Part shown: piece after piece, positions 1 through 20,308 of the stretch
How positions within the stretch are numbered: the stretch's first letter is position 1
Layout: each line of letters begins with the position of its first letter
Source of the DNA: Tropicibacter oceani
GTDB taxonomy: Bacteria > Pseudomonadota > Alphaproteobacteria > Rhodobacterales > Rhodobacteraceae
Direction: 5' to 3'
NCBI RefSeq assembly: GCF_029958925.1
Contig: NZ_CP124616.1
Coordinates: forward strand, 1,240,001 to 1,304,000
DNA length: 64,000 nt
Notes under the pieces: model-generated
Told to the model about the DNA's origin: nothing
The model's input: only the letters and a program-made list of their open reading frames with translations
The model's database searches: none
Position numbers and translations under genes: made by a program

Positions 1-753
1 GAGGCTTGCGAGGAACAGCCGGTGGAGATCTCGCCGCGCCTGGCGCTCGAGGAGTTCGTCGAATGGGCGCATGGCTGGCGGCCCGAGCAGAACGGCGTAA
101 TGGTGCTCACGGCGCACAGCTCAAAGGGCCTTGAGTTCGACAATGTCGTCGTCTGCGATTGCGACTGGCTTCAGGGCTTGTCGATTACTGGCGCAGATCG
201 ACGGCTCTTCTATGTTGCCGCCACCCGCGCCCGATATAGCCTGAGCCTGACAACAGGGGGCTTCATGGCGCCGACGAGGCGGTTGATTTCGGGGGAAAGG
301 TCGGAGCACCTCTCGCCGCTCGATCTCAAGCCGCACCGACCTTCACTGGAAGCTCGAGCCAAGGCACCACTGATCCCCTGCTCTGTCCGGGATGTCTTTC
401 TGTCTTTCCCTGCCTGGGATGGGTGGGGGTGTAAATCCGACGAGGAGGACAGGCAAAAGACCAAGGCCGTCATTTCCAAGCTGAAGCCCAGTGATCGCAT
501 CCTGATCAAGAAAGACGAAGACCAGAAGGATCAAAATCCCTGGCATGTCTTTGCGCCGACCGAGAATGGGCTGCATCGGATCGGCAAGATGCAGAGAGGC
601 TTCTCGCCGCGTGTGGCCGGAGAAGAGTTCTATGCCGAGGTGTTTGCCCTCGTCTCATGGCGCAAGACCGACAGCGACGAAATTCAGCACGGCAAGATTT
701 TCCTCGATCAATGGTTCACTGTCATCCCCGAATGGAGGTCCATCGGCAGCTAA
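1..753 (+). CDS. UvrD-type helicase, C-terminal part (cut by window start)
   Basis: The reading frame is open to base 1, so the 5' end lies outside the window. The visible part starts in the second RecA-like domain of a superfamily 1 helicase. A motif V-like stretch (LTAHSSKGLEFDNVVV) and a motif VI-like stretch (RRLFYVAATRAR) are both clear. About 150 residues follow with no recognised motif. In UvrD/PcrA and RecQ-UvrD fusion proteins these motifs couple ATP hydrolysis to 3'-5' unwinding. Which N-terminal domain precedes them cannot be seen. It runs convergently towards the defence gene at 950 and may be the outermost gene of the same island. Confidence 0.75.
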   Translation, partial: EACEEQPVEISPRLALEEFVEWAHGWRPEQNGVMVLTAHSSKGLEFDNVVVCDCDWLQGLSITGADRRLFYVAATRARYSLSLTTGGFMAPTRRLISGERSEHLSPLDLKPHRPSLEARAKAPLIPCSVRDVFLSFPAWDGWGCKSDEEDRQKTKAVISKLKPSDRILIKKDEDQKDQNPWHVFAPTENGLHRIGKMQRGFSPRVAGEEFYAEVFALVSWRKTDSDEIQHGKIFLDQWFTVIPEWRSIGS

Positions 754-949
754 TACAATACGAAAAGGTTACTATGGCTTTGATGATGTGACCGCCCCCG
801 ACGGCATCTATGTCCCAAGGTTATGTCCCAAGGTGGATCTGCACTCGCGCAAAAGTAAAATTCCTTAAGATAACGTCGACTTTTGATGTCGCGCTGCCCG
901 CCTAAGGTACGGGCGTCGAAAGTCGGCTCACCGCCCTTCGGGCAAAAAT
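754..949. other. intergenic region between convergent genes, with a 13-bp tandem repeat and weak hairpins
   Basis: No gene is seen. A perfect tandem duplication of 13 bp (TATGTCCCAAGGT) lies at 809-821 and 822-834. A short GCCC/GGGC hairpin at 933-943 followed by AAAAATT could terminate transcription from either side. Confidence 0.5.
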
Positions 950-3736
950 TCAGTTCGCGAAGTGAGCAGATGGCAGCACTCTCACCATGATGGCATAGGT
1001 CTCCGGCGTCGAATTGTTGGCGAGGCGGAGGAGCGCGTCCTCAAGGCACCTCAAACGGTCCGTCATTCCCGAAATTTTTGCCTCCATGCGTCGCTGTTCG
1101 GCAGCGATCTGCCCTTCAATCATCTGGATCTGTTGCTGGTCCTGGATATTGCGTGAGCGCAAATTCTCGATGCTGAGTTGCTTCCACCGAACATATGTCT
1201 CGGTCTCAGACATCAGTATCTGCCTCCTTTCCGAAAAGGCAGCCGTAGCTTCCTCACGAAGCTCTCCAATGCGCAGGCGTTCCTCTCGGATCATCTCCCG
1301 TTCCAGTGCGGTCACAAATTTCTGGACATCGCGGAAAGGGGCGAGCGTTTTTTGAAGCTGACGGTTCGTTGTGGGTTTGCAATCTGCGCCAAGAAGGGCT
1401 CGAGCGATCTTGGCGGTGCCGACCTCGACGTCCCCGTCAGCGGCGACCAAGAGGCAGCGCGTCCCGATGGCGTCGGGGAACAGGGTGGAAATCCATCGAC
1501 GGTCTGAAAGGCGCCCCACGCGCACGGCAGGAACATCGTTTTCACGCACTCTAAGCTGCTTGTCCTTGAGTATCGAGGGCCGCCAAGTGCTGCGAACCAG
1601 AATCAGTGTTTTGCCAATCAGATCTGAAGACAGCTCGTCATCCGACAAGTGGACGCCGACCGGAATCGGCGAAACCTTCCCCGGTTCCAGTATGGCGGAT
1701 GCCTGACGGACCAAATCATCATGCAGGTCGTCACCGGTCGAAAAGAAACGTGCCCGTTTTCCGAGGCGATCCTTTGGCAGGACGACATCCTTTTTCGGCG
1801 GCTTCCCAAGTCGATCCCGGCGCCACCGAAAGACTTCGGATTCTCGCGTTGTCATCGCGCCGATCTTGTAAGGGCAATTCTCCAGAAGCGGCGGCAATGA
1901 CAGCGTTGCGACGGGCTCGCCATCGCTTGCTTTGAGAAAGCCGCCTTTCATAGCTCCGCTGACGTGCAACAACCGGAGCCAGGCGTTGCCAGCATTATCT
2001 GAGGCACGAATCCTTCCGACGATTTTGCCGAGGTCACCAGAAGTATCGGGCTGAGCGGACGCAAAACCCTCGCCCGACTGATCCAGCCCGAAGGAAAGTT
2101 CGCTCTTCAGTTCAGAGGCGGCCTGCCTGAAACTTGCCCGACCAGCCGCTGCATCTGTGATGATCCTGTCGATACGCTGGGCCAAGGCTTCATCGAGGTA
2201 GGGCAAGGGATGTTCGAAGACATCGAGGAGGTCGAGGGCCTCCAGAACCCGCTCATCTGCTGAACCGGTAACGACCATGCGCCATATGCCGATCGTGCCC
2301 ACGGTCCGGTCTTTCATGTAGGCACTCAACCCGCCAGAACGCAGGCGGTCGAGGCGGCCGATCAGCTGGTCGATGCGCGAGGCCTGCCAAGGCAGGTTGT
2401 AGAAGACCATGTCCGCGGCGAAGTTGTGCAGGTTGAGGCCTGCCTCGACAAACTCTTCCATGATCAGGACCGTTGCCTGGCTCTGGACGGCGCCCACGAC
2501 ATCCACCAGATCGGTGTTGTGGCGACCACGCATGGTTGCGATCCCGCGCTCCGAGAGGTGCGGGAACATGTCTGACAGGCGCCGTTCAAGCATGTCGACG
2601 GTGGGGGTGTCGCCCGCGACGATGATGATGCGCCGCTCTTTATCTTTGTGCCAATAGCCGAGCAACACGTCGCACAGGTCGTCGAACAAAGCGTTGCCGG
2701 GATTGCGCGACAGGGTGGTTTCCACCTCGTCACGTAAATCCGGGTGCGCGGAGAAGGACCGGTGGCGCAGCACGTCACGCAGGCTTGATCCTGCACGGAA
2801 CATCTGACGGCACTGCAACCATGGCGCCGACTCAATCGGGTTTTCCCCGCCGTCGCGACACGCCGCGTTTTGCAGCATGATCTTAGGCATCTCGGCGTCG
2901 GAAGGCGCGGTTCGGACCGTGTAGACCTTTCGCGTCGGCGCAATGCCGGGCCATTGGCTCCGCGTCTGGCGCAGGATTCGGCGATCCGCCGCGAAGGCAG
3001 TCCTGTACGCCGAGGCAGTGAGCGTGCCGTCAGAAACGCGCGCCTGTGCCGCAGCGGCGTCTTCGGCAAGAAACTCCAGCGGCTCGCGGCCGAGGAGATT
3101 GGCGATTTCCGAGCGTTCCGGCTCGATAGCGCCGATGACTGCCCGTGCCCATGCAGGATTTCCCAGACGCGGCGTTGCCGTCAGCAGAAGGACATGTCGG
3201 AACCGTTGTGCGTCGCGCCGCTCACGGCACAGGCTGGAAAGGAATGCCGCGTCGTCGAGGTTCATGGCGTGGATCTCGTCCACGATGAGCATATCATAGT
3301 CATCCGGGGACGGGCGTGCCGGTTGCCTGCGGACCATGTCAGCCTTGATCAGGTGGACATAGCCTTCGCCTTCGGGATGCTCCTGCTCTTCTTCTGCGTC
3401 TGTCTGGATGCGGGCCGCTATGTGGCCGCGCGCCGAAAGCTCGACCTGCCACTGGTAGCAGATACGCTCAGGTGCCACGATTGCGACCCTCAAGGATGGA
3501 TCGCGCCTGCGCAGGATGTTGAGGATCATCAAGGCCTGTACCGTCTTTCCCATGCCGACCTCATCGGCAAGCAGGTGGCGGATTTCCGTGTCTGCAAGGA
3601 TTCGACGCAGGTTTTGAATCTGATGCGGGTAGGGGTCCGCCGCGACGCCGAGGGCGCCACCCATCTCCCAAGACTCGGCTGCGATCAGGCGTTCGAGGGC
3701 GTGAAAGCCGGACTGGGCAAGGTGAAAGCTATTCAT
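950..3736 (-). CDS. SNF2/RapA-type DEAD/DEAH helicase (DrmD-like candidate)
   Basis: This is a 928-residue superfamily 2 ATPase predicted to move along or remodel DNA. The first RecA domain has a Walker A motif at about residues 58-65 (DEVGMGKT), a DEIH box (LIVDEIHAMN) and motif III (LLLTATPR). The second carries a motif VI-like stretch (DQLIGRLDRLR). The last 150 residues look like coiled coil, rich in E, R, Q and I. I chose the ATG at 3736 because it overlaps the stop of the upstream gene as ATGA. A longer frame reaches 3838 but runs inside that gene. Class 1 DISARM also has an SNF2-like helicase, DrmD, and drmA/drmB lie nearby, so DrmD is a reasonable but unproven label. RapA/HepA-like is the alternative. 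Confidence 0.8.
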   Translation of the reverse strand: MNSFHLAQSGFHALERLIAAESWEMGGALGVAADPYPHQIQNLRRILADTEIRHLLADEVGMGKTVQALMILNILRRRDPSLRVAIVAPERICYQWQVELSARGHIAARIQTDAEEEQEHPEGEGYVHLIKADMVRRQPARPSPDDYDMLIVDEIHAMNLDDAAFLSSLCRERRDAQRFRHVLLLTATPRLGNPAWARAVIGAIEPERSEIANLLGREPLEFLAEDAAAAQARVSDGTLTASAYRTAFAADRRILRQTRSQWPGIAPTRKVYTVRTAPSDAEMPKIMLQNAACRDGGENPIESAPWLQCRQMFRAGSSLRDVLRHRSFSAHPDLRDEVETTLSRNPGNALFDDLCDVLLGYWHKDKERRIIIVAGDTPTVDMLERRLSDMFPHLSERGIATMRGRHNTDLVDVVGAVQSQATVLIMEEFVEAGLNLHNFAADMVFYNLPWQASRIDQLIGRLDRLRSGGLSAYMKDRTVGTIGIWRMVVTGSADERVLEALDLLDVFEHPLPYLDEALAQRIDRIITDAAAGRASFRQAASELKSELSFGLDQSGEGFASAQPDTSGDLGKIVGRIRASDNAGNAWLRLLHVSGAMKGGFLKASDGEPVATLSLPPLLENCPYKIGAMTTRESEVFRWRRDRLGKPPKKDVVLPKDRLGKRARFFSTGDDLHDDLVRQASAILEPGKVSPIPVGVHLSDDELSSDLIGKTLILVRSTWRPSILKDKQLRVRENDVPAVRVGRLSDRRWISTLFPDAIGTRCLLVAADGDVEVGTAKIARALLGADCKPTTNRQLQKTLAPFRDVQKFVTALEREMIREERLRIGELREEATAAFSERRQILMSETETYVRWKQLSIENLRSRNIQDQQQIQMIEGQIAAEQRRMEAKISGMTDRLRCLEDALLRLANNSTPETYAIMVRVLPSAHFAN

Positions 3737-6672
3737 GAAAGGCCAACATTCGTCATCGCGCGATAGCGCAGGGCCGCGTATCGCACGGCACGCGCAGTGA
3801 AGCGGTCCGCGCCGAAGCGCAGCAGTCTGCCCCGCCATTCCGTGTCGTCCATTACGCGTTCCGGGGCGAGGAAAAGGTACAACATGGCACGCAGGTCCGC
3901 GGGCGTGATCCAGCGCCCGCTTCGGGACTGAACGTCCACATGACTGGAAACCAAGGCGGCGATCAGGTCGTCCAGATGGCTGGATTCATATGGCAGCCGT
4001 TCGAGGCTCTCCGCACGCAGCGAGGGCAGTACGAGGGCGGACAACTCGGGGAGGCGCGCCGCTTCACGGGCGCGGGCAACGAGTTTCTGCCAGCTGCCAT
4101 CAGCATTTCCCGCATCGAATTCGAGTTCAGCTGCGCCATTGGACACCGCTTTCTCAGATAGACGCTCCCACGCATCAATGACAGCATCGTCCATTTCCGG
4201 CCACATCTCCCCGTCGGGAATGACGACAAGGTCCGGCGCGGGCAACATTCGGCGGAAGCACTCTTCAAGATATCCGGCGAGTTCGTGCCTCTGATCGTCA
4301 CCCAGTGGCGAGAAGGCTGTCGTTCCACAGACCAGATCGGCCCGCATCGCTTCGGTAACCAGCCGTCGATGGAAGCCTGTTCCCAGTCCTCGACAGGACT
4401 TTTCCGTTTTCATCCACAGATCACCGCACAGCGCGGCCACGAGCCGATCTTCGAGTTTTCGGCGGGCGCTGGATCGGAGACCTTCGCCCATTGCCGTTCC
4501 GGTCGAGGCAAGACACCAGCTGAGGTAGGCTTCAATGCCTTCAGTAAGGCCATGTGTGTTACCGTAGGTGTCCGCGACGCGCGTGATTTGACCCGCTTCG
4601 GCCTGGGGGATAATGTCGAGCACCGTGCCCGCTTCAGGTTCCACCAGAATGCAACTGCGCAAGGCGCCATCGCTTCCACCGGCCGGACGGAGAAGACCAT
4701 ATCCCGAAGACATGGCCGCGGACTGCATCGCGCCCGGACTGAACACCATGCAGGATGTCACGGGGTCGCAGGCGAGTGTCTCACGCGGTTCATGGCCTTC
4801 AGTGGTCCATCTTCCGCTACTGCGATCATATTTCCACTCTGGTTCCGGAGCCGCCAGTGCCCAGGCTTTGGTGTCCAGCCCCGTTGCGCAGACCTGAAGG
4901 CGTGCATGCATCCCGCCACCGGTCCAAAGACGGGCGGCGGTCCGGATGTCGGAAAATTCAGGGCGGTCGAAAGCTATTCTGAGGGGCGAGCTCGGCGCGC
5001 GGATGCGTACGGTATTGGATTGGCCATCACTGGCACTGAATGTGATGTCGAGTTCGACATCGTGCAGGGTGATCGGGGTCGAAAGATGCAGCGCCCCGGC
5101 GCCACGCGCGATTTCCGCGAGACCGATCCCATCCGGTTGAAGTGAAAGGCTTACGGGAGCTGGAGGTTCGATTTCGCGAAAAACCAGGTCGATCTGCGCA
5201 ACCTTGGACGTGTCGAGCGGCGACAGCGTCCAGATACCCTCAGTCATCGGCAATACTTGCCATCGATCATCGGCCAGTCGGAACTCGATGCTGGCTGCTT
5301 GGTCGAGGCGCTCCGCAAGGATTGTAACCGGTGTCCTCGGGTGCGCCTGTACCGGCCGTCCCATGGCTTGGCTGACCGTGGAACCATCGTGGCGAAGGGT
5401 CAGGCCGCCGAGAAATTCGAGGAATGGTTCGGCTTCGACGTGGATGCCATGCCGAGCCAATACGGCATTGCCCTTCGGCGTTCCGCTCGTGAAGTGATAA
5501 AGGCCATCCCCCCACTCATCGAGGGCCAGTCCGTCGAGAACCACCTCGTAAAACGGGACGCCGGGGGTCACCTTGTCCGTGGGTCTGATCTGCGACTGAT
5601 AGCCGTCGTCGCCTTCGTCTCGGAACAGCAATCCCGGCGCGGGAGTGATGACAGCTTCCAGCCAGTCCGGGACCTCGATCTCGTTGATCTGCGGGTGGGG
5701 GACATCTCCGATTGGACGTCCGATGAAGACAGCATCACCGCAGAGGAAACGCTCAAGAGTTGTGGATCGCGCACCGACGGTGACCATCAATGTCGACAGG
5801 GGGACTGCGACTTCTGACTTGACGGCTTCGAGTTCAGCAGGGGTCAGGCTCGGTCCTCGAGCGCTCAGACCGCGGGCTTCGGCATCATCGAGAAGAAGTT
5901 CGTAGGTCGCCTTGGGAAGGTTACCCACTCCCTGATGTTGCGCAAGGCGCCTCGCCCGGACGGCGCGTTCGAGCCGCCTGACCTCGCTTTCGGACCGCAA
6001 GTCGTTGGTGAGCCGCTGCAGGAAGCCGGATTCCATTCCCAGATCACCAGTCCGGCCCGAAACCAAGTGGCCGATGACCGCCAGCGCAAGGTGGTCGTCC
6101 TGAAGCCAGGATTCCAGCCTTCGCGAACCGAAGCCTCGGGCAAGATCCCGCAGGCCAGGCAGCGTGGCGCGGGTGACGCTCAGGCTGCGCGTCTGGCTGA
6201 GGAACTCCCTGACAAGCCGTGCCAAAGGTCCATGGACCTCACGAGGAACCATTGCGTTTCGGACTGGCCATGCAAGATGCGGGAAGGCTGAGGACCATGC
6301 GTCATCAAATGGTCGCGCAGTTCCGAACCGTCTCGCGCATTCCCGGAAAAGGTCGGAGATTACGTTTCGTTGGGGAATTGGTATATCGACCTTGATTGCT
6401 GACTCAACCAATGGCCAGAAATCGGTCCCGGTTCCCCTGTATTCATAGCCTATCTCGGTCACGACAACGGAAAGCGACAGCGCGAAGTCCTGCCACGCGT
6501 GCTTGGTGAACTGGTGCAACCCGGCCCGATGGCTGACAAGGTTCAGCAATTGCTCGATTTTGTCGCGGGGGAAGCCGTGCTCGATCAGGTAAATGGTTCC
6601 ACCATCCCGCTGCCGGGACAGGTCTGAAAAAATCTGCGCCAGCAGATTCTCACTGGCAAACAAGTCATTCAT
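3733..6672 (-). CDS. large protein of unknown function coupled to SNF2-type helicase
   Basis: This 979-residue protein matches no family I recognise. The N-terminal 200 residues are mostly helical, with a conserved-looking tract (FPHLAWPVRNAMVP) near residues 130-145. Residues of about 400-620 look beta-rich with many short hydrophobic/polar alternations. The C-terminal 300 residues are helical again. No Walker motif, nuclease motif or membrane segment is visible. Its stop overlaps the start of the SNF2-type helicase by 4 bp, so the two are probably translated together and may form a complex. The start lies 106 bp from the divergent UvrD-like gene. Its size and position are reminiscent of accessory DISARM proteins of unknown function such as DrmE, but I see no sequence basis for that name. 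Confidence 0.85.
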   Translation of the reverse strand: MNDLFASENLLAQIFSDLSRQRDGGTIYLIEHGFPRDKIEQLLNLVSHRAGLHQFTKHAWQDFALSLSVVVTEIGYEYRGTGTDFWPLVESAIKVDIPIPQRNVISDLFRECARRFGTARPFDDAWSSAFPHLAWPVRNAMVPREVHGPLARLVREFLSQTRSLSVTRATLPGLRDLARGFGSRRLESWLQDDHLALAVIGHLVSGRTGDLGMESGFLQRLTNDLRSESEVRRLERAVRARRLAQHQGVGNLPKATYELLLDDAEARGLSARGPSLTPAELEAVKSEVAVPLSTLMVTVGARSTTLERFLCGDAVFIGRPIGDVPHPQINEIEVPDWLEAVITPAPGLLFRDEGDDGYQSQIRPTDKVTPGVPFYEVVLDGLALDEWGDGLYHFTSGTPKGNAVLARHGIHVEAEPFLEFLGGLTLRHDGSTVSQAMGRPVQAHPRTPVTILAERLDQAASIEFRLADDRWQVLPMTEGIWTLSPLDTSKVAQIDLVFREIEPPAPVSLSLQPDGIGLAEIARGAGALHLSTPITLHDVELDITFSASDGQSNTVRIRAPSSPLRIAFDRPEFSDIRTAARLWTGGGMHARLQVCATGLDTKAWALAAPEPEWKYDRSSGRWTTEGHEPRETLACDPVTSCMVFSPGAMQSAAMSSGYGLLRPAGGSDGALRSCILVEPEAGTVLDIIPQAEAGQITRVADTYGNTHGLTEGIEAYLSWCLASTGTAMGEGLRSSARRKLEDRLVAALCGDLWMKTEKSCRGLGTGFHRRLVTEAMRADLVCGTTAFSPLGDDQRHELAGYLEECFRRMLPAPDLVVIPDGEMWPEMDDAVIDAWERLSEKAVSNGAAELEFDAGNADGSWQKLVARAREAARLPELSALVLPSLRAESLERLPYESSHLDDLIAALVSSHVDVQSRSGRWITPADLRAMLYLFLAPERVMDDTEWRGRLLRFGADRFTARAVRYAALRYRAMTNVGLS

Positions 6673-6778
6673 CTTTTCATTTCGTCACGCAGACGCCAAT
6701 AATGGTGCTACATGCTTGAAGCGGTTCGCGGTGATTTTCAATAGGCATGTCATTACTTTAGGTCGAGTACAACGCGGA
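6673..6778. promoter_or_regulatory. divergent promoter region between modules A and B
   Basis: This 106-bp spacer separates two divergent operons and must hold promoters for both. It is more AT-rich than its surroundings (for example GTGATTTTCAATAGG near 6731-6745). No confident -35/-10 pair was identified. Confidence 0.45.
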
Positions 6779-9085
6779 ATGCAAAACACAGGTGTCGACA
6801 CGGTAGACGCTCTCGTCCCCGGTCAGAAGCTCGCCGCGCAGCTGCGCAGGGATGTCCATGATCTGGGAGCAGTGCCGACTTCCCGGGCAATCGCGGGTCT
6901 CAAGGCGGTTGCCGTCGCTGACGGTATGACCGGGTCGGCAGCAGAGCAGCAGGCTCAGGCTGTTGTTTCTGCCCTGATGGCGTGTGGTGATCTCGGATCC
7001 GGCAAGTCATACGGCGACAGGGTTCTGGTCAAGCGACGATCGGTGGCGGTGCTCGTTCAAGGAGGCCGATGCGTCCTCCTTGGGGGCGATCCCTTACAGG
7101 GTGAGGCTCACGGATTGTTGCGGTCGACTGATCTCATCCCGTCCGATGTCACCAGTTTCCTGGATTGGGTCGGTGAGGTTTCCGAGGCTGATATTGCCAG
7201 GCTCTGGCAAGTTCTCGATGCAGGCGTCTGGCCGTTGGGCGAGATCACCTCTGACGCAGCAACCCGCTTGCTGTGCGGTGCAGGCATCGTGCCGGAGCAG
7301 CCGATTGCCGGTGAGGCATCAGCTTGGCTCAGGGAGTATTTCCCCTTGCCCCGGACGGGAGAGAGCGCCGCAGATCCGTCGCAAACGGCAGTCATTGAGC
7401 GTCCGTCAAGCGCACGGCAAATTGTTACCGCTGGGCCAGGCAGCGGCAAGACGCATACGGCAACGGAACGGGTCATCCACCTGGTAAAGCAGGGCGTTCC
7501 TCCGGCTGGCATTCGGCTCATCACCTTTACCAGGGTCGCAGCGGAAGAAGTCGGACGTCGTGTATCGAGCGCCTTGGCTGAATTCACCTACTCCGGTGGT
7601 GTCACATGCGGGACGATCGACTCGCTTGCGTGGAACCTTGTGACCACGCTTGGGAATGCACCCCGCGGTGGACATGAGCGGATAATCCGTGTCGCACGAA
7701 AGGCGGTGTCGGACGGCGAGCAGGCGATGCTGGATCTGCTGGCAGGCATTTCCCATCTGGTGATCGACGAAGCACAGGACATCGTCGGAGAGCGGCGCGT
7801 ATTCTGTCGCGCTCTGATCGACGCGTTGCCAGAGAGCGTCGGCGTGACGATTCTGGGGGACGGAGCACAGGCGATCTACGGAACGTGGGCCGGTGACAAA
7901 GAGAGCAGCGGCTCGCTCCATGCCGAGCTCAGAGATTTATCCGGTTGGGAAAACCGTTCCCTGACGGCAAACCACCGGACGAAATCGCTTGGCTTGCGAC
8001 AGTTCTTTGGACAGGCGCGGGCGCTGCTCGAGTCTGACAGCGATCCTCGTGCGACCTATCTCGAGATTCGGGGAATGCTCGAAGAGGTTGCGACAGACGC
8101 GAATGTGAGCCTGACCGGACCGGTTTTCCCTTGGCGGGACGACAGCCTGATCCTGTTCCGGGGCCGCGCCGCAACCGAGGCCGCGTCGGTTCGACTTACG
8201 CGTTCCGCGCGGGTGCACAGACTGAAGCTGTCGGGCCAAACCAGTGTTTGCGATCCACTGGTTGGCGCGATCTGTGCTGGGCATGGCTCCGGTGCAGCAA
8301 TCCGCCTCGAGCATGTGCGACGGCGACTTGCAGACCTCCATCCGGCTCCGTTGGGATTGATCGAAGAGGACGTGCTGGCGGACCTTCAGTCCCTCGGGAA
8401 TGGTCATACGCCCCGTCTTCAGGACATTGCTGACGCGGTCGAACGGGAGCCGGTGGGGCACACACGGGATCATGTCGGCACCGCAGGTCCACTGCTGGGT
8501 TCCATTCATGGTGCGAAGGGACGGGAAGCCTCGAACGTGCTCCTCATGCTGCCTCCAGTTCCGATCGGCGACGATGTCGACTGGCTGGAGGAAGCCCGCG
8601 TCCTGTTCGTCGGGGCAACACGGGCATCGACACATCTGTACCTGGGCAAGGCACAGCCGGGGTTGGTCCGCCCCGGCAAGAACGGCAGCAGATGGTTGCG
8701 TGGCAACGGTGGTGGCCTTCTTTTGTCCGGATCGGAGGGACTTCGGGCTCTCGACGGTCTCGCCCCAGCGTTGTCCGTCTGGGAGGCTGGTTTCCGGCAA
8801 CCGAATTGCTCATTTCGTCGGGTCGGAACTGGAGAGGAAACGCCCTGGCATCTCGTCACGGACGGCGGCGACCTTCTGGCTCAAGTCGATGGCCTGTTGA
8901 CCGATGACCTCGATCACATCGAGGCCACCCGGGGAGGCCTCGCACCCGGAACCTTGCGCGTGGTCGGAGCTACAACAGTGGTTGACCGTCGGAAAGACGG
9001 CAGAATTCAAGCGGTGACCTTGCTGCCGGTGCTTCAGGGCGTCGTGCAGGGTACAGGGAAGAGGGACAATCAAGTTGACCAGTAA
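6779..9085 (+). CDS. UvrD-like superfamily 1 helicase
   Basis: This is a 768-residue SF1 helicase. About 210 residues of unknown N-terminal sequence precede motif I (TAGPGSGKTH, residues about 217-226). The order then follows UvrD: Ia (ITFTRVAAEEV), II (LVIDEAQDI), III (ILGDGAQAIYG), IV (LTANHRT), V (SIHGAKGREASNV) and VI (RVLFVGATRAS). The last 130 residues are unassigned. I chose the ATG at 6779. The frame extends to 6593, but that part overlaps the divergent gene and has no good ribosome site. The 3' end overlaps drmA by 11 bp, so it belongs to the drmA-drmB operon. A UvrD-like helicase is not part of the standard DISARM gene set, so here it is either a new partner or a replacement for the missing drmC. 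Confidence 0.85.
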   Translation: MQNTGVDTVDALVPGQKLAAQLRRDVHDLGAVPTSRAIAGLKAVAVADGMTGSAAEQQAQAVVSALMACGDLGSGKSYGDRVLVKRRSVAVLVQGGRCVLLGGDPLQGEAHGLLRSTDLIPSDVTSFLDWVGEVSEADIARLWQVLDAGVWPLGEITSDAATRLLCGAGIVPEQPIAGEASAWLREYFPLPRTGESAADPSQTAVIERPSSARQIVTAGPGSGKTHTATERVIHLVKQGVPPAGIRLITFTRVAAEEVGRRVSSALAEFTYSGGVTCGTIDSLAWNLVTTLGNAPRGGHERIIRVARKAVSDGEQAMLDLLAGISHLVIDEAQDIVGERRVFCRALIDALPESVGVTILGDGAQAIYGTWAGDKESSGSLHAELRDLSGWENRSLTANHRTKSLGLRQFFGQARALLESDSDPRATYLEIRGMLEEVATDANVSLTGPVFPWRDDSLILFRGRAATEAASVRLTRSARVHRLKLSGQTSVCDPLVGAICAGHGSGAAIRLEHVRRRLADLHPAPLGLIEEDVLADLQSLGNGHTPRLQDIADAVEREPVGHTRDHVGTAGPLLGSIHGAKGREASNVLLMLPPVPIGDDVDWLEEARVLFVGATRASTHLYLGKAQPGLVRPGKNGSRWLRGNGGGLLLSGSEGLRALDGLAPALSVWEAGFRQPNCSFRRVGTGEETPWHLVTDGGDLLAQVDGLLTDDLDHIEATRGGLAPGTLRVVGATTVVDRRKDGRIQAVTLLPVLQGVVQGTGKRDNQVDQ

Positions 9086-12000
9086 CGCCGTGGATTTCGC
9101 GCGCCAGCGGATGATCGAACGCCTCAGGCAGGATCTCATGGGTCCCTTGGCGGATGAAGAGGTCCTGCACGACAGCCCTTCGGAAATTTACATGACAGGC
9201 ATCCTGTTCGCCCAGAAGAGCCCGCAGGGCGTGGGCGAGTTGGAGGGCGCAGTTCTTGGTTCCGATGAGGAGGACGATGCCGCGTCCCGGGTGCCGCCGG
9301 ATACCTTCCGACCGAGTTCGGCAGGCTTGTCGTTCGCCGTTCGGCCGACGGATGGTGAGAACATACTTCTCAACGTGGATGTTTCGGCGGCCCGCTACGA
9401 AGCCCGACCACATGCCACCTCTGACGAAGGGCGCCCGCGGTTTGATTGGGCGCGCAAACAGCTGAAAGCCCGACATTCCTTCGAACTGCCCAGTGATCGG
9501 GACGGCGAATATGTCATGCCAGGTATGCCGGAGATGGCACTCTGGTTGCGCTCGCGCAGACATGGCGATCTTTACCTCGTGACGATCATTCTTCTGAACA
9601 AAAACGTTATGCCGGAGAAACCCGAGCCCGGATTGCGCGACATAGGCAACCTGCATCAGGTTGGCTTCAGCGTCGAAGCCGATCCTGATTTCGGTCGGAT
9701 CGTTCCTCGTCCCGATCCAATGCAACGGATGCCGGATGAAGATCGGGCCACGGCTGCGTTGCTCTATCGCGACGCTCCCGACTATGGCGCTGGTCATACT
9801 TGCTCCATCCGAACGGAGCATCTGCCAGATGGAAACGTTCGCCTGTCGACCGAGTGGTTGCCGTCGACACTGGTCAGATCACCGGGGCCTCTGGGTGATC
9901 CAGAGCATTTCGGGAAACTCGTCGCGAAGAAGCTGGAGGGGGCGCTCGGCTCTGAGTGGCTTTCCGTCGCGCCTTCTGGCGATGTGTGCGCGGCGCTCGA
10001 CGAGCTCTGCGCTTGTTACGATCAATGGATTGCTGCCCGAGAAGCTGAGGCCCATGCATTGCCAGCCGAGCAACAGGATACGGCGCGTCGTCACATGTAC
10101 GAGTGTCGCATCGCGTCTGGTAGGATGAAAGAAGGCGTGGACCTTCTCCGGAAGGACGGTCCGGAACTCCTCGCATTCCGGCTCGCCAACCGAGCGCTCT
10201 GGCAACAGAACGAATGGAAGCGCAAACGGGATCCGAGGATCGGCCCACTGGTCTGGCGGCCGTTTCAGATGGCCTTCGTGTTGCTCTGCATGGCTTCGGC
10301 TGGGAACAGGGATCACGATGATCGTGGCGTGATGGACCTCCTTTGGTTTCCTACCGGGGGCGGCAAGACCGAAGCTTACCTGCTCTTGACGGCATTCACG
10401 GTTTTCCTGCGCCGTCAGCAGGGTGGTCCCGAGGCGGCAGGCGTGACGGTCCTTATGCGCTACACACTGCGCCTTTTGACGGCGCAGCAGTTCCAACGGG
10501 CTGCAGCGATGATCCTCGCTTGTGATCTGTTGCGGACCGGGGACTGTGATTGCCCTGGCATCAAGATCCCTTCAGCTCTTTCGCAAGGCGCGCCGATTTC
10601 CATTGGCCTTTGGGTCGGCAGGGACACGACTCCCAACAGAATCGTTGAAACAGAGAAGACGGGTTCGCCCGCACAGATCGAGCATTGCCCGGACTGCGGT
10701 TCACAACTCGAATGGGATATCGCGTCCAGTGGTGACCGGATCCATGCAACCTGCCACAGCACTGGATGCCTTTCAGGTCAGGCACGAGACCATTTCCCCT
10801 TCTGGACGGTCGACGAAGACATCTACCGCGAACTTCCCACACTGCTTCTGGGCACCGCAGACAAGTTCGTTCAGATCGTTACAAAGAAGGAGACCGGTCG
10901 CCTGTTTGGGCTTGGTGATGCCGGTCGATTGCCGCCCGATCTGATCATCCAAGATGAACTTCATCTCATTTCCGGACCGTTGGGCAGCATGGCAGGCCTC
11001 TTCGAGACTGCTATCGACGCCCTATGCACCCGGGAGGGACAACGCCCAAAAGTGATCGGCTCTACAGCCACGATCAGGCGTGCAGCGGATCAGGTGCTGA
11101 ATCTCTTCGATCGATCCGTCATGCAGTTTCCGCCGCCAGGCCTGCACCATGCCAATTCAGGCTTTGCCTGTGTCGAGCAGGACAGCCCGGGACGGCTGCA
11201 TCTGGGCGTGACAACGGCCGGTCGTACCGGCAGCTACATTTACCAGGCGATCGCATCGTCGCTCCTCCAGGCTGCGGCTGATCCGTCTTTTTCCGGCACC
11301 GAGGAAGATTATTACTGGACGCTTGTAGGCTACTTCAACTCGCTGCGCGAACTCGGCAGCGCCTCGATCATCATGCAGGACGACGTCACGCATGGCCTTG
11401 AACTGGTTTCAGCACGGCGGCAGGAGCAGCCGCGTCACCTTCAGCCGCCAACCGAACTGACAAGTCGGGTCAAATCGGATGAGATCCGCAACATGCTCCT
11501 GGAGCTGGATGCAACCCGAGACAGTGGCGAGGCAGCTGACGTCGTACTGGCTTCGAACATGATCTCGGTCGGTCTCGACGTCGGGCGTCTGGGCCTTATG
11601 CTGGTCAATGGCCAACCCAAGACCATCGCCGAATACATCCAGGCAACAAGCCGGGTTGGACGCGGTCGCGTGCCCGGGCTGGTCGTTACGCTATACAATG
11701 CCAGCAAGTCCCGCGACCGAAGCCGGTATGAGACCTTTCCGACGTGGCACAGTGCCCTTTATCGCGATGTCGAGGCGACTGGTGTGACGCCCTTCGCGCC
11801 GCGGGCGCGAGACAAGGCCCTGCACGCTCCGTTTGTTGCAATGGCGCGGCATCTTCTGCCGGGCATGTTGGACACACCTGCCGCGGCGGCGGACCACGAG
11901 GCAGACCTGAAAGCACTGATCGATTTGATATGTCGGCGAATCTCGAACGTAGACCCCGGTGAGGCTGATGCTGCCCGTCGCGAGCTTGACGAGTTCCTGA

Positions 12001-12215
12001 AGCTTTGGCTGCGCCGTGGAGCACTGCCGCAGTATTGGGCCAACTGGTCGGACGATGCTTTGCTGATTTCAGCGGATGCACAGGCGACATCCAATGCTGT
12101 CGGCTTCACCAAGGGACTCGCGCGAGCCACCCCGGGAACACTGCGTGCCGTCGAGCCGTCGACGGAATTCGTCATCAGGGAAATTGTGTCGTCTGGCGCT
12201 GAGGAAATCCAATGA
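9075..12215 (+). CDS. drmA: DISARM core helicase DrmA
   Basis: This 1046-residue SF2 helicase is a core DISARM protein thought to act on incoming DNA with DrmB. The diagnostic features are a Walker A in FPTGGGKTEAYLL near residues 422-434, the unusual DELHLI box (IIQDELHLISGPLGSM) near 625, IGSTATIRRA, and a C-terminal motif VI region (NMISVGLDVGRLGLM then QATSRVGRGR) near 830-860. A zinc-ribbon-like CPDC...CHSTGC lies between the two RecA domains. The annotated start is TTG at 9075, overlapping the previous gene; an internal ATG at 9111 is possible. The stop overlaps the drmB start as ATGA. Family assignment is from motif pattern and the adjacent DUF1998 gene. Confidence 0.85.
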   Translation: MTSNAVDFARQRMIERLRQDLMGPLADEEVLHDSPSEIYMTGILFAQKSPQGVGELEGAVLGSDEEDDAASRVPPDTFRPSSAGLSFAVRPTDGENILLNVDVSAARYEARPHATSDEGRPRFDWARKQLKARHSFELPSDRDGEYVMPGMPEMALWLRSRRHGDLYLVTIILLNKNVMPEKPEPGLRDIGNLHQVGFSVEADPDFGRIVPRPDPMQRMPDEDRATAALLYRDAPDYGAGHTCSIRTEHLPDGNVRLSTEWLPSTLVRSPGPLGDPEHFGKLVAKKLEGALGSEWLSVAPSGDVCAALDELCACYDQWIAAREAEAHALPAEQQDTARRHMYECRIASGRMKEGVDLLRKDGPELLAFRLANRALWQQNEWKRKRDPRIGPLVWRPFQMAFVLLCMASAGNRDHDDRGVMDLLWFPTGGGKTEAYLLLTAFTVFLRRQQGGPEAAGVTVLMRYTLRLLTAQQFQRAAAMILACDLLRTGDCDCPGIKIPSALSQGAPISIGLWVGRDTTPNRIVETEKTGSPAQIEHCPDCGSQLEWDIASSGDRIHATCHSTGCLSGQARDHFPFWTVDEDIYRELPTLLLGTADKFVQIVTKKETGRLFGLGDAGRLPPDLIIQDELHLISGPLGSMAGLFETAIDALCTREGQRPKVIGSTATIRRAADQVLNLFDRSVMQFPPPGLHHANSGFACVEQDSPGRLHLGVTTAGRTGSYIYQAIASSLLQAAADPSFSGTEEDYYWTLVGYFNSLRELGSASIIMQDDVTHGLELVSARRQEQPRHLQPPTELTSRVKSDEIRNMLLELDATRDSGEAADVVLASNMISVGLDVGRLGLMLVNGQPKTIAEYIQATSRVGRGRVPGLVVTLYNASKSRDRSRYETFPTWHSALYRDVEATGVTPFAPRARDKALHAPFVAMARHLLPGMLDTPAAAADHEADLKALIDLICRRISNVDPGEADAARRELDEFLKLWLRRGALPQYWANWSDDALLISADAQATSNAVGFTKGLARATPGTLRAVEPSTEFVIREIVSSGAEEIQ

Positions 12216-13972
12216 GCAAGAACGTCGGCAGCATTCGCCGCAGTCAGATCATCTCGACTTTCGGTCCGGGCGCGATCGTCGATTTTCGCCTGCCGGGAAG
12301 CGGGGCGCTGCTTTCGGGGGTTATGCAGGGTTTGGAGGCCTGGGAGGCCTACACGAAAGGTGGCTACAAGCAGGATGTGGTGCGCGAACCGAGACTCGAA
12401 GCACTCCTTGGCGTTGACCACTTTCGTGCTCCGCCGGTAGGGACTTACCTGAAGGACGGGCAAAAAAAGGATCGCGTGCTCCCGATAGAACGTTTTCCGG
12501 ATTGGCTGTCCTGTCCCGAGTGCCATGTCATCAACCGGTCAGGGCAGTGGGCGCCTTCGCGTAACGGCGACAGCCTGCATTGCGGCCAATGCCGTGGAAA
12601 GCCGGCAGTGGTACCTGTGCGCTTCGTTGCGATTTGCGAGAACGGGCATCTTGATGATTTCCCGTGGTCCACATGGCTGACGCACGAACCCGGGTGTTCC
12701 CGGCCGGTTCTGGCTTTGAAGACGGTCGGCGCAGGCATCGGTGGGCTGTTGCTGACCTGCAAGTCCTGCGGTGCCGGGCGTTCCATGGCCGAGGCATTTT
12801 CGCCCAAGGGTATTCCGAAGCACAAATGCGGCGGTGGCCGGCCTTGGCTCGGTGGGCGCCAATCGGGATGCGAGGCAGCGCCCCGGATCACGCAGCGCGG
12901 CGCCAGCAACGTGTATTTCTCCATCGAGCAGAGTGCGATCACCCTTCCTGACTGGAAGGTGCCATTCAGGGAGAAGATGGCCGACTTCATCGACATGCTC
13001 GATTTTCTCGAAGATGAAGACATGCGGATCGCTTTTATCGCCAAGAAGATCCTACCGACTTGGGACGGCTCCGAAAGCGCCGAAGAAATCGCACGTCGTT
13101 TCAGGGAGATGAAGGAAGACACTTCTGGAAGTGAAGAGGATCTGAGGCTCGACGAGTTCCGGATGCTGCTGACGGATACGTCGGACTCTGAAGAAAGCGC
13201 GAAGATCCTGCTGAACCGCCAACAACCCGTGCCTCCCACATTGTCAGGGATGATCTCATGGATTTCATCGGTGGAAAGGCTTCGGGAGGTACGTGCGCTG
13301 ACCGGGTTTACGAGGCTGAAGGCGCAGGTTGGTGGCAAGCCGGATGCCGTGCCTCTGTCTCGATCAGGTCTTTCCTGGCTGCCAGCGGTAGCCTTGCATG
13401 GGGAAGGCGTATTTCTGTCACTGAACCTTGATGCCGTATCCGAATGGGAGAGGCGGCCTGATGTTGTCGACCATTTGGCTCACCTGATCCAGTCGCACGT
13501 GAATAGTGCTCGGGCCGAAGGAAAGCAGGTGGATGGCGCGCCACAGCAACTCAATGCGCGGTATATGTTGATTCACACTCTGGCGCATGCGTTGATCGCG
13601 CGCCTGTCGCTCGACAGCGGATATTCCTCGAGCGCACTGCGTGAGCGCCTCTATGTCGGACCGGATATGGCCGGATTGCTGATCTATACTTCCACGCCGG
13701 ATGCAGACGGGACGATGGGAGGGCTTTCGCGACAGGCACGACCGGCCCGCATGGAGCAGTTGGTGCTGCAGGCGCTGGCCGACCATGAGCTCTGCTCCGC
13801 CGATCCGCTTTGTTCCGAAGGCCTGGCGCGCAGCGGTTCGAATGGGAATCACGCGGCATGCCATAACTGCGTATTCCTACCGGAAACCAGTTGTGAAGCC
13901 TGGAATGGCTTTCTTGACAGAAGCCTTTTGAGTGCGGGGCCGCTCTCGTTCTTCAAGAAACTCGTCGAGTGA
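12212..13972 (+). CDS. drmB: DISARM protein DrmB (DUF1998)
   Basis: This 586-residue protein has the typical DrmB opening (RRSQIISTFGPGAIVDF), a zinc-ribbon-like CPEC...CGQC pair around residues 91-128, and the conserved ICENGHLDDFPW segment. A second CKSCGAG cluster follows. The C-terminal DUF1998 region includes HTLAHALIARLSLDSGYSSSALRERLY and ends with a cysteine set (ACHNCVFLPETSCEAW). In DISARM, DrmB binds DrmA and DNA. Translation is coupled to drmA by a 4-bp overlap. The next DISARM gene expected in most loci, drmC (phospholipase D family), does not follow; instead a convergent operon begins 54 bp downstream. Confidence 0.9.
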   Translation: MSKNVGSIRRSQIISTFGPGAIVDFRLPGSGALLSGVMQGLEAWEAYTKGGYKQDVVREPRLEALLGVDHFRAPPVGTYLKDGQKKDRVLPIERFPDWLSCPECHVINRSGQWAPSRNGDSLHCGQCRGKPAVVPVRFVAICENGHLDDFPWSTWLTHEPGCSRPVLALKTVGAGIGGLLLTCKSCGAGRSMAEAFSPKGIPKHKCGGGRPWLGGRQSGCEAAPRITQRGASNVYFSIEQSAITLPDWKVPFREKMADFIDMLDFLEDEDMRIAFIAKKILPTWDGSESAEEIARRFREMKEDTSGSEEDLRLDEFRMLLTDTSDSEESAKILLNRQQPVPPTLSGMISWISSVERLREVRALTGFTRLKAQVGGKPDAVPLSRSGLSWLPAVALHGEGVFLSLNLDAVSEWERRPDVVDHLAHLIQSHVNSARAEGKQVDGAPQQLNARYMLIHTLAHALIARLSLDSGYSSSALRERLYVGPDMAGLLIYTSTPDADGTMGGLSRQARPARMEQLVLQALADHELCSADPLCSEGLARSGSNGNHAACHNCVFLPETSCEAWNGFLDRSLLSAGPLSFFKKLVE

Positions 13973-14026
13973 TCAAGTCGACCTGGCGTTGACCTTCGGC
14001 ATTTCGATTTCCCAACCGGCCGGAGG

Positions 14027-14461
14027 TCAATGCACGCGGCGCCAGCCGGTAGAGATCCTGATGCGGACGGGGCCATCTTCGACCGGTTCGTCGGGTTCCT
14101 TCGCGGCCTTGACGACATTAATCAGATAGCTGGTCGCGCCATCTTCCTTTGAGATTTCGAAGGTGTCGCCTTCTTTGGCGCCTTCCGTCCTGAAGTACTT
14201 GGTCAGGTGCGTGATCCGATATTCGTTCCGCGTCCCATTCGGTTTGTGCAAACGGTTATTGTAATAGACGTAGCGCAGTCGAAGTTCGCGACCATCTGGG
14301 GTCACGCAGATGATCCATTCGCTTGGATTGTACTTGTCGGGATCCAAGTGTGGCAGGAAAGCCAGAAGCTCGCCGTCGCCCTTTGGAATGAGGATACCGC
14401 CCATGTGGGCCCCCGTCGATCCGACATCATTGGCGCTGAGGGGCTTGAGGAATTTCTTCAT
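14027..14461 (-). CDS. stand-alone EcoRII-N-like (B3-type) DNA-recognition domain
   Basis: The 144-residue product resembles the N-terminal effector-binding domain of the restriction enzyme EcoRII, a B3-like DNA-binding fold. Matching features are the opening LKPLSANDVGSTGAHMGGI, the segment LRLRYVYYNN and the signature GTRNEYRITHLTKYF. EcoRII is about 400 residues with a PD-(D/E)XK nuclease in its C-terminal half. That half is absent here and the ORF ends cleanly, so the protein should bind DNA but not cut it. The start overlaps the stop of the SNF2 gene as ATGA. It is the last gene of the six-gene minus-strand operon that begins with a 5mC methyltransferase. Inference: it supplies site recognition to the neighbouring ATPases and nucleases. 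Confidence 0.75.
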   Translation of the reverse strand: MKKFLKPLSANDVGSTGAHMGGILIPKGDGELLAFLPHLDPDKYNPSEWIICVTPDGRELRLRYVYYNNRLHKPNGTRNEYRITHLTKYFRTEGAKEGDTFEISKEDGATSYLINVVKAAKEPDEPVEDGPVRIRISTGWRRVH

Positions 14462-16281
14462 CGGGACTTTCCGTTGGGAGACATCTGGAGTGCCCGGGTC
14501 AGATCCTCGCTGTCACGGATCGCCACGGGCACGGTTTCGTTTGCCAGTTCACTTTTCCACGCCGATCGTTCGATCATGACCTGTTCCACCGTGTCCTCGT
14601 AGAACAGGCGGTAGATGGTGACCGGCTCGGTCTGGCCGCGGCGGTGTGCGCGGGCGCTGGCCTGCGCCTCGAGAGCAGGGTTCCAGAGCGGCGTGAAGTG
14701 AATGACGATGGTTGCGGCGGTGATGTTCAGCCCTGCGCCTGCGGCGCGCGGATTGAGCACGAGGCAGGCCGGACCGTCAAAGCACGAGAATTCGTCGACG
14801 ATGGCTTGGCGATCTTCTTGTGCTGTGCTGCCGTTGATGGCGCCCCACCATGCGGCGGGCAGGTCATGCCCGGCTCGTTTCAGCAAGTCACCGATCCTGT
14901 TGAAGGATGCAAAGACGATCACTTTGCGCCGGTTGATGAATGCTTCATGTAAAAGCGCAATGGCCCGCTCCATCTTCGGCGTCATCAGCTGTGCTGCGTC
15001 ACTTGCCACCACGTCGGCGTCTTCGTGGTCGTCCGCATCGTCGCGGCTCCGCAGCCAGGGGTGGGCACAGAACAGCTGCAATTGCATCGTCGCAACCAGC
15101 GCCCCGGCCACCGGATACTTCTCGAGGGTCGTCTGCCTGACCATCTCGTATTGCCAGGCAAGGTCGTCGTCGAGAAAAACAGGCAGGTCGACGTCAATCC
15201 GTTCTGGCAGGTCGCCGGCCACATCGGCCACACGCCGCTTCAGAATGACCGGGTCGGTAAGCCGTGCCAAGCTTTTAGCTGCTTCCACAGTGTCGGGGAA
15301 TTCGATCTCGAAAACGCTCTGCTGGTCGAGCATTCCGGGCACTGCCAAGTCGATCAGGGACCAGAGGTCGAGAAGGGTGTTCTCGACTGGGGTGCCTGTC
15401 ATGGGTATCGCGCAGCGCCGTGGAATGGCGGCCAGTGCCTGACGCCGGTTCGATCCCGGATTTTTGACCGCTTGCGCTTCGTCACAGATGACCCATGACC
15501 ATTCCAGCGATGACAGCACAGCGATATCGTTCACCATCGTGTCGTAGGTCGTGATGACGACGGAGGCGACCTGCAGGTCCCGGAAGATGCCGGCTCGGTA
15601 CGCGCCTCGATGCACCAGAATGGTAAGCGACGGTGCAAAGCGGCGGATTTCGCGGACCCAGTTTGCAATCAGGCTTGTCGGGCAGATGATGAGCGCGGGC
15701 GAACTCTGCGGAGGTGGATCCATCATGAGCAGCGCGATGATCTGCAGGGTTTTCCCAAGACCCATTTCATCCGCAAGGATAAGGCCGCCGGTCCGCCTCG
15801 CGGTCCGCCACATCCACTGGACGCCACGGGCCTGATAGGGGAACAGCTTCGCGTCCAGTCCGGGAATGGACATCTCCGAGCCAAGGGCATCGGCCGCAGT
15901 CGTGCCGGACCGGAATGCCTCCTCGTCGGCCTCGATCAGGATCAATTCGTTTGGCTCCCGCGTGAGTCTCATGCCTAAGGCAAACGGGACATCCCGTGGA
16001 TCGGCACCTTCGAGGACTTCGGCAACCAGATCGGGGGCATCCTGCGGAAGAGGCCTGATCGTATTTCCGTCCAGTACCCAAGCATGTCTGGCTGAGGGGG
16101 CCTCAATGAAGCTCGGCACGCCACGCAGCGTCCTGAGGCCACCCAAGCGTGCGGCAAGGCGCACGGGTCCGTTGCCGATCCGGAGGGCGGGATCGAGGAC
16201 ACGCTCAGATACGCTGAACCTGTCGCCGAATTCAGCGGCAACCGCATCGAACGCGATGGGCATGTCGGTCGGAGAAGTCAA
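14458..16281 (-). CDS. SNF2-family DNA translocase
   Basis: This 607-residue protein is a compact SWI2/SNF2 ATPase. Walker A is DEMGLGKT at residues 171-178, motif II is DEAQ at 267-270, motif III is PMTGTPVEN, and the helicase C domain carries AGAGLNIT and ARAHRRGQT. The first 140 residues are unassigned. In restriction systems such motors translocate or remodel DNA and bring distant sites or nucleases together. The start used is a TTG overlapping the HNH stop; an ATG at 16263 is the alternative and would leave a small gap. It overlaps the EcoRII-N-like gene at its 3' end. It differs from the helicase at 950, which is longer and of the RapA branch. Confidence 0.88.
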   Translation of the reverse strand: MTSPTDMPIAFDAVAAEFGDRFSVSERVLDPALRIGNGPVRLAARLGGLRTLRGVPSFIEAPSARHAWVLDGNTIRPLPQDAPDLVAEVLEGADPRDVPFALGMRLTREPNELILIEADEEAFRSGTTAADALGSEMSIPGLDAKLFPYQARGVQWMWRTARRTGGLILADEMGLGKTLQIIALLMMDPPPQSSPALIICPTSLIANWVREIRRFAPSLTILVHRGAYRAGIFRDLQVASVVITTYDTMVNDIAVLSSLEWSWVICDEAQAVKNPGSNRRQALAAIPRRCAIPMTGTPVENTLLDLWSLIDLAVPGMLDQQSVFEIEFPDTVEAAKSLARLTDPVILKRRVADVAGDLPERIDVDLPVFLDDDLAWQYEMVRQTTLEKYPVAGALVATMQLQLFCAHPWLRSRDDADDHEDADVVASDAAQLMTPKMERAIALLHEAFINRRKVIVFASFNRIGDLLKRAGHDLPAAWWGAINGSTAQEDRQAIVDEFSCFDGPACLVLNPRAAGAGLNITAATIVIHFTPLWNPALEAQASARAHRRGQTEPVTIYRLFYEDTVEQVMIERSAWKSELANETVPVAIRDSEDLTRALQMSPNGKSR

Positions 16282-17111: not shown

Positions 17112-17112
17112 C

Positions 17113-18741: not shown

Positions 18742-18753
18742 CTTCCTGCTCTT

Positions 18754-19242
18754 TCACTTCGGACGAGAGCCGGACTTTCCATCCAGACGTGAGAAAAAGT
18801 CCTGCTCAGAAATGCTGGCCTCTTTTTCGCGGCCCTTCAACCAATCTGCAATCACCGATATCAGAATATCTTCCGATACTTGGCGCGTTGCGCATTCCCA
18901 TACAGTTAGGATGCGCCACCCGGACTGTGCAAGGCGTTGCCGGACCGCCGCATCCCTTTCCTGGTTTCGACCTATCTTGGTTTGCCAAAAATCGGTATTC
19001 GTCTTGGGGATGCGAAAATAATGGCAGCCCTCGTGCCCGTGCCAGAAACACCCGTGAACGAAAATCACAGTCCGATATTTCGGGAGCACGATATCCGGCT
19101 TCCCAGGAAGATCCTTGGTATGCAGGCGGTACCGGAAGCCCAGACGGTGCAGTCCCTTGCGCACCATGATCTCGGGCTTGGTATCCTTGGGGCCGATCCG
19201 CGACATCATCGCGGACCGTGTCATGGGCGGCTTGTCAGGCAC
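18754..19242 (-). CDS. vsr: Vsr-type DNA mismatch/nick endonuclease
   Basis: The product (about 162 residues) matches Vsr endonucleases: [16 protein letters not shown] near the start, GKPDIVL with the catalytic Asp, and [16 protein letters not shown] carrying the catalytic and zinc-binding His/Cys residues. Vsr nicks beside T:G mismatches that arise when 5-methylcytosine deaminates, and usually pairs with a cytosine methylase, as here. I use the GTG at 19242, which overlaps the methyltransferase stop and gives the usual short leader before RSxMM. ATG at 19224 is the alternative; the longer frame to 19407 lies inside the methyltransferase. In this operon it may also act as a second restriction nuclease. 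Confidence 0.88.
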
Positions 19243-20308
19243 GCATCCCCCGTTTGGGGTGCAGTGCGACCGTGTTGGTGATCCAGGGGGCCATGGCCTC
19301 GGCAATGGCAATGGCAACCGGCGCGGCGACTGCGTTGCCGAACTGACGGTAGGCTTGCGTGTCAGAGACGACGATTTTCCAAGGTTGGTTCGAGCCCTTT
19401 CGGTCAAACCCCATGAGTCTTGCGCATTCCCTTGGTGTCAATCGCCGGGGCGTACCGTGGTCCTGGGCGATCAGTATTTCGCTGCCATCCTTGTAGTAGC
19501 GCGCACTGAGTGTGCGTGCCACGTTGTGGGACTGACACAGACCGAATCCGAAGCCATTACCGGCGGCCTTATGCTTGGCAGCGTAGTTCTGGAGGTACTT
19601 CCAGAGGTTGGGTGTCAGTGTGTACTTGCCGCCCACCTCGGCCAAGGGGCCTGTGGTATAGGGTTCTTCAACAGTCTCCGAACCGTCCTGCGGGTGCAGG
19701 ATGTCAACAAGTGTCGGCGCCGGACCCTCAGGGAAGATCACCTCGTCAAGGGAAAACGCGACGGGCACGTCACGCCGGAAGCCGGCGATAAAGATGCGCT
19801 CGCGGTGTTGCGGAACCCAGTGGCGCGCGTCGATCACTTTGTGGTCGACGTCATATCCCAGTTCATCCAAGGCGTGGAGAATGACGCGGAAAGTGTTGCC
19901 TTTGTCATGCGACAGGAGGTTCTTGACGTTTTCCAGAAGGAAAGCCTTCGGTTTGTGGTGTCGCAGGATGCGAACCACGTCAAAGAACAGTGTGCCCTGC
20001 GTCTCATCCGCGAACCCGTGGGCCCGACCCAGCGAATTCTTTTTTGACACCCCGGCAATGGAAAATGGCTGGCAAGGGAAACCAGCGAGCAGGACATCAT
20101 GCGCGGGGATGTCGCGCTCGTCGACTTTGGTAATGTCGCCGTTGATCTCGTGACCATCTTCAAAGTTCGCGCGGTAGGTCTCCTGCGAGAACTTGTTCCA
20201 CTCGCTGGTGAACACGCAGGTTCCGCCAACTGCCTCGAAACCAATGCGCAAGCCGCCGATGCCTGCGAAGAGATCGATGAAGGTGAAACCGTGCGAGACA
20301 GCGGTCAT
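19235..20308 (-). CDS. dcm: DNA (cytosine-5)-methyltransferase
   Basis: This 357-residue enzyme methylates C5 of cytosine using SAM. Motif I is [11 protein letters not shown] (residues 10-20), motif IV is GFPCQPFS with catalytic Cys79, motif VI is LLENV (125-129), motif VIII is [10 protein letters not shown], motif IX is [13 protein letters not shown] and motif X is [11 protein letters not shown]. The target-recognition region between VIII and IX is about 90 residues, which is short. It is the first gene of the minus-strand operon and would mark host DNA. A neighbouring EcoRII-N-like domain suggests a related recognition site, but the target cannot be read from sequence alone. The role corresponds to DrmMII of class 2 DISARM. 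Confidence 0.92.

Follow-up and report, generated by a model that had tools for sequence, protein, structure and literature searches.

P979, a large protein encoded with an SNF2 helicase beside a DISARM-like operon, is homologous to proteins of Druantia loci and a candidate sensor or adaptor

How DISARM and Druantia recognize infection is largely an open question; a sensing role for DruH of Druantia III is a recent proposal. In its cryo-EM structure, helical ends lie around Ig-like domains; DruH is proposed to sense late phage proteins, and it is reported to nick supercoiled DNA through a dimer-dependent nuclease activity, with no canonical nuclease domain known (PMC13192584). A survey of YprA-helicase systems describes DISARM, Dpd, Druantia, ARMADA, BRIGADE and TALON (PMC12458937). 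Here we describe a locus in a 64,000-nucleotide stretch of Tropicibacter oceani DNA (the window) in which a 979-residue protein, P979, is encoded with an SNF2 helicase, divergently from a UvrD-DrmA-DrmB operon (Table 1). The family of P979, common to DISARM-like and Druantia-locus settings, is apparently undescribed.

Table 1. Features of the locus and its surroundings (window coordinates)
Feature	Coordinates	Strand	Remarks
SNF2/RapA/DpdE-type SF2 helicase	950..3736	-	928 aa, overlaps P979 by 4 bp
P979	3733..6672	-	979 aa/979 codons, ATG start; proposed sensor/adaptor subunit
Divergent intergenic region, conserved	6673..6778	.	106 bp; presumed promoter region of both operons
UvrD/GajB-like SF1 helicase	6779..9085	+	768 aa from conserved ATG; probable DruD-like N-terminal domain
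DrmA-type YprA-family helicase core	9075..12215	+	NCBIfam DISARM_DrmAS 810.8 bits, cut-off 950; PADLOC DrmA E 2e-197
DrmB family (MZB/DUF1998 canopy subunit)	12212..13972	+	DrmB_fam 475.3 bits, cut-off 240
C5 cytosine methyltransferase	19235..20308	-	neighbouring Vsr / GHKL-ATPase / HNH / SNF2 cluster; system membership uncertain

Comparison of the window locus with known systems

The locus resembles DISARM in that its YprA motor is divided into DrmA and DrmB and an SNF2 helicase is present. DrmB was recognized by its family model, and DrmA is DISARM-like, yet under the equivalog cut-off. Unlike in DISARM, no DrmC was recognized: models of DrmC and PLD nucleases had no match among the genes scanned from window 22 to 19407, and we recognized no dedicated nuclease in the window operons or the window clade. 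The SNF2 helicase is also unlike a class 1 DrmD, which it matches at 88.8 bits (cut-off 610); its best scores are against DpdE (157.2 bits, cut-off 500), RapA and DrmD, all far below the curated cut-offs. In further contrast to DISARM, the window adds P979 and a UvrD helicase with a probable DruD-like domain, and has a methyltransferase only in a neighbouring cluster.

The N-terminus of the window UvrD aligned with DruD (hhalign prob 65%, E 6e-5) and with the DruD-like proteins of two related loci, L016 and L036 (prob 80%, E 1.4e-5). Against the combined DruD set the real score was 37.7, compared with a maximum of 20.5 among 200 column shuffles, and the alignments indicate that this helicase probably carries a DruD-like N-terminal domain. 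Even so, the window is not a Druantia type I locus. Its motor is DrmA plus DrmB rather than a single-chain YprA helicase of the DruE type, which occurs only with relatives of P979; DruA had no match among the window genes scanned; and P979 is neither DruB nor DruC. ARMADA type II (ArmA-ArmD) likewise brings together a BrxHII/RapA-like SNF2 protein, a YprA helicase and a GajB-like UvrD (PMC12458937), but the window has P979 in place of the PglX-like methylase ArmB, a YprA helicase of the DrmA+DrmB type and a UvrD whose N-terminus resembles DruD. We also considered P979 as a degenerate PglX methylase in the place of ArmB; this was rejected, as no methylase profile model matched it. The locus is not classical DISARM, Druantia or ARMADA, and the examined portions of the YprA survey's main text do not mention a P979-SNF2/UvrD-DrmA-DrmB layout, although its supplement may hold an unlabelled earlier sighting (PMC12458937).

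Conservation of P979 and its homologues in Druantia loci

The P979 interval holds a single open reading frame of the length given in an earlier note on this DNA, and the 4-bp overlap with the helicase start reported there was confirmed: the P979 stop TGA and the SNF2 ATG share ATGA (junction TTTCATGAATAG). The long open reading frame of UvrD appears to overlap the start of P979. Its in-frame ATG at 6779 is conserved in seven relatives, so the UvrD start is probably located there and the two operons probably diverge from the 106-bp region, which contains one weak sigma-70-like match (plus strand, 6674-6703). The earlier note had placed P979 divergent from a drmA operon; the divergence holds, although the first gene across the gap is UvrD and not drmA. 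That note had not seen that P979 forms one system with this operon.

In each of the 16 loci found, at identities of 22-84%, the gene immediately after P979 is SNF2, with stop and start overlapping in most: by ATGA in L002, L004, L005, L016 and L036, in a GTGA/TTGA-type arrangement in L018 and L025 and by 1 bp in L014, with an overlap in L019 as well. The tie to an SNF2 motor in a defence cluster, noted earlier in one genome, proved to be conserved over deep divergence. In 14 of these loci the pair lies divergently beside UvrD-DrmA-DrmB, again over deep divergence. Seven Rhodobacterales genomes with relatives at 70-84% identity keep the full five-gene set; relatives at 26-28%, in Rhizobium, Azospirillum, two further genomes and one viral-collection contig, have the same divergent layout with a NERD-UvrD protein added after DrmB. 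In Rhizobium leguminosarum RCAM0626 (L015 5649-19890), the NERD-UvrD, DrmB, DrmA, UvrD and P979 genes are split into fragments, reflecting a decaying locus or sequencing errors. P979 is rare: a search of 296 genomes from the family matched five, including a weak match that was later dropped (G243; E 7e-4, no neighbours), and extra scans of viral contigs yielded few relatives.

The gene is more than a chance reading frame, because dN/dS over six close-clade sequences is 0.14 and because homologues with the same neighbour occur in other alphaproteobacterial families. Within P979, region 609-705 evolves fastest (dN/dS 0.25) and the ends more slowly (0.10-0.12); the values for its partners are 0.08 for DrmA, 0.06 for DrmB and 0.08 for the SNF2 core (first 450 codons). 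Compared as whole proteins, SNF2 diverges almost as fast as P979. Values of dN/dS are below 1 throughout, so positive selection in P979 is not indicated. For 13 loci, P979 distances between pairs track those of SNF2 with a correlation of 0.995, a value dominated by two clusters.

Class-wide and phylum-wide searches returned N-terminal matches in open reading frames of 948-954 aa, each located after DruA and before DruD, with DruE next in the two loci uncut by a contig end. The same DruA-X-DruD-DruE order was observed in Nitrosococcus watsonii pNWAT01, a decayed Sinorhizobium copy and two viral-collection contigs. In all, seven Druantia type I-like loci have, between DruA and DruD-DruE, a homologue that covers nearly the full length. 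A profile-profile comparison (hhalign) of the P979 set with the Druantia-locus set gave prob 99.9 and E 7.8e-34 over 740 columns, and the C-terminal LCG-W-E segment alone gave prob 91 and E 9.5e-7. These proteins of 934-955 aa (e.g., the hypothetical protein WP_013221941.1 of N. watsonii pNWAT01) are homologous to P979 over nearly the whole length and share its domain order and class of partner (a YprA helicase and DruD), but they are only about 19-21% identical to it, lack an SNF2 partner and have DruE in place of DrmAB. The earlier note had missed these homologues, and with them the link to Druantia.

Both profiles aligned at a probability below 1% with DruB and DruC of the canonical type I locus L037, whose identity was verified by PADLOC models (762 and 902 bits). 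Given this result and its position, the Druantia-locus homologue fills the place of DruB and DruC without being either. Homology of P979 to DruB, DruC and the DruF and DruG candidates was rejected on the same grounds (prob <1%). In L056, a 1013-aa protein that was at first read as DruH proved to be DruF, and DruD1 had no match in a phylum-wide search.

Two loci are intermediate in composition. In Leisingera sp. S132 and Paracoccus versutus pTAV4 (L016 and L036), P979-SNF2 is convergent with a 316-333-aa protein, a NERD-UvrD protein and a DruE-type helicase of 2,052-2,094 aa. The Leisingera protein of the 316-333-aa class matches DruD1 (E 1.3e-5), and the Paracoccus locus also encodes a 686-aa DruA with a full-length match to the PADLOC model (1,029 bits). 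A single stretch of the latter plasmid (L036 21873-25446), for which the PLSDB record carries no annotation, contains DruA, the DruE-type helicase, NERD-UvrD, the P979-like protein, SNF2 and an MzaB-like ATPase. Because of the intermediate loci and the probable DruD-like domain of UvrD, we regard P979, SNF2, DruD-like domains, NERD-UvrD and the YprA motors as a shuffled set of parts. On the basis of the Druantia-locus homologues, these same loci and the probable DruD-like domain, we infer that P979 is a subunit interchangeable among YprA-helicase defences, one that would bridge DISARM and Druantia.

A proposed role for P979

The earlier note recognized no motif in P979, and we obtained zero matches in Pfam, PADLOC models, NCBIfam (E<=1), PHROGs (E<=0.1) and PDB sequences (E<=10). 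Searching these collections with the whole family likewise found nothing, and matches of single family members at E 0.003-0.1 were treated as chance. No clear profile match to an already characterised defence protein, which that note had held would tell against its proposal, emerged; the homologues from Druantia loci are uncharacterised proteins too. The AlphaFold2 models, run with alignments of 11 rows for P979 and 9 for a Druantia-type relative, were weak for P979 (pLDDT 51, pTM 0.32; confident only at 1-228 and 505-608) and poor for the relative. The predicted layout of P979 comprises a helical N-terminus (1-228), a beta-rich core with a beta-sandwich at 505-608 and a helical C-terminus (about 706-974). 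Foldseek searches of the PDB and of viral models gave no meaningful match (best E 0.16 and 0.025), the PDB matches being generic beta-sandwiches.

We therefore considered how P979 compares with DruH (YjiT / STY4851-ECs_5259 family). The two are of comparable size (1,100-1,155 aa for DruH), have helical ends around a beta-rich or Ig-like core and are partnered with a YprA helicase. The N-terminal 90 columns of P979 are collinear with a 12-sequence DruH profile at E 0.001, with an hhalign prob of only 20-25%; the score of 32.3 was reached in 0 of 400 column shuffles (best 22.7). By contrast, P979 has no NCBIfam or PADLOC match to the DruH / STY4851 family, and its C-terminus shows no similarity to that of DruH by hhalign. 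A common origin of the C-termini was rejected for want of an alignment. The N-terminal similarity is suggestive only, a lead and not a demonstration.

With moderate confidence, we propose that P979 is an infection-sensing or adaptor subunit of a YprA-helicase anti-phage system. The earlier suggestion of an effector or a sensor is thus supported in part, leaning towards a sensor or adaptor, which fits best because P979 has no recognised catalytic motif, a fast-evolving core and a DruH-like layout. In this proposal, the helical ends of P979 would touch DNA or the partner helicases, and the beta-rich core would recognize an infection cue, either a phage protein or a DNA structure. P979 would be made together with the SNF2 ATPase, which may remodel or translocate DNA for it, and would then license processing of phage DNA by the YprA motor (DrmA and DrmB in the window, DruE in relatives) and by the DruD-UvrD helicase; in sister systems, NERD-UvrD proteins would cut. 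In favor of this role we count the agreement of the predicted helical-beta-helical layout with cryo-EM DruH (PMC13192584), the DruH N-terminal alignment, the rate at core residues 609-705, the SNF2 tie in 16 loci, the Druantia-locus homology and the occurrence of P979 either with DrmAB and a DruD/UvrD helicase or with a DruE-type helicase. Counted against it are the DruH prob of 20-25%, the weak fold model, the lack of a significant structure match, dN/dS below 1 and an SNF2 partner diverging almost as fast.

P979 might instead be a structural scaffold that holds SNF2 and the YprA helicase on DNA and senses nothing, as its large size, conserved helical ends, lack of a catalytic motif and exchange between DrmAB and DruE partners would permit. 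We consider this unlikely, since the variable core suggests a changing external partner and the Druantia-type loci have a P979 homologue with no SNF2 to hold. It is more doubtful still that P979 is an effector, a nuclease of unrecognised type switched on by the helicases. The reported nicking by the DruH dimer offers a precedent (PMC13192584) and no other nuclease was recognized in the window operons, but the invariant residues of P979 include no recognisable nuclease motif, and the NERD-UvrD protein is a nuclease candidate in sister systems. Finally, divergent transcription and the other partners of the L016 and L036 homologues could mean that P979-SNF2 is a separate defence system merely adjoining a DISARM-like operon, which is very improbable in view of the 14 conserved divergent loci, the Druantia-type homologues in one operon with DruD and DruE, and the probable DruD-like domain of the window UvrD.

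Returning to the sensor or adaptor role, we suggest more tentatively that P979 founds a family of exchangeable sensors for different YprA motors (DrmAB, DruE), whether or not an SNF2 ATPase is present, such that DISARM-like, Druantia I-like and possibly Druantia III systems may share one sensing principle and the window may represent a distinct, undescribed class linking DISARM and Druantia directly. A subunit family that occurs beside both DrmAB and DruE motors provides a concrete, testable sensor candidate and a second DISARM-Druantia link beside ARMADA. It also defines two layouts, P979-SNF2/UvrD-DrmA-DrmB and DruA-X-DruD-DruE, neither found in the portions of the literature examined, with which annotation tools could find systems now missed or labelled incomplete.

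Neighbouring clusters

The C5 methyltransferase of Table 1 belongs to a separate cluster about 5 kb away. It matches the DrmMII model along its whole length (442 bits), and the generic MTase_II model higher (493 bits). Such a gene accompanies the locus in the window, Rhizobium, Azospirillum and G241 but is missing there in G123, so it is only a possible fixed subunit. The cluster (window 14027-20308, minus strand) adjoins DrmB and encodes a small protein that weakly matches a type II REase, an SNF2 helicase, an HNH nuclease, an MzaB-like GHKL ATPase, Vsr and the methyltransferase. In five relatives (L002, L003, L006, L007 and L008), synteny with the main system extends to at least the portion of this cluster nearest DrmB. 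A C5 methyltransferase and Vsr also occur within a few kb of the system in distant hosts (L014 21331-24341, L042 2995-8391, L045 15250-16735; window 18754-20308), with varying partner genes (MvaI-type nuclease, DUF2357); the pair may belong to the system or represent a recurrent association. On the other side, a 1,847-aa fusion, apparently of a RecQ-like helicase followed by a UvrD helicase (L017 5210-10753, ending at window 753 and crossing the left edge) is directly convergent with the SNF2 gene.
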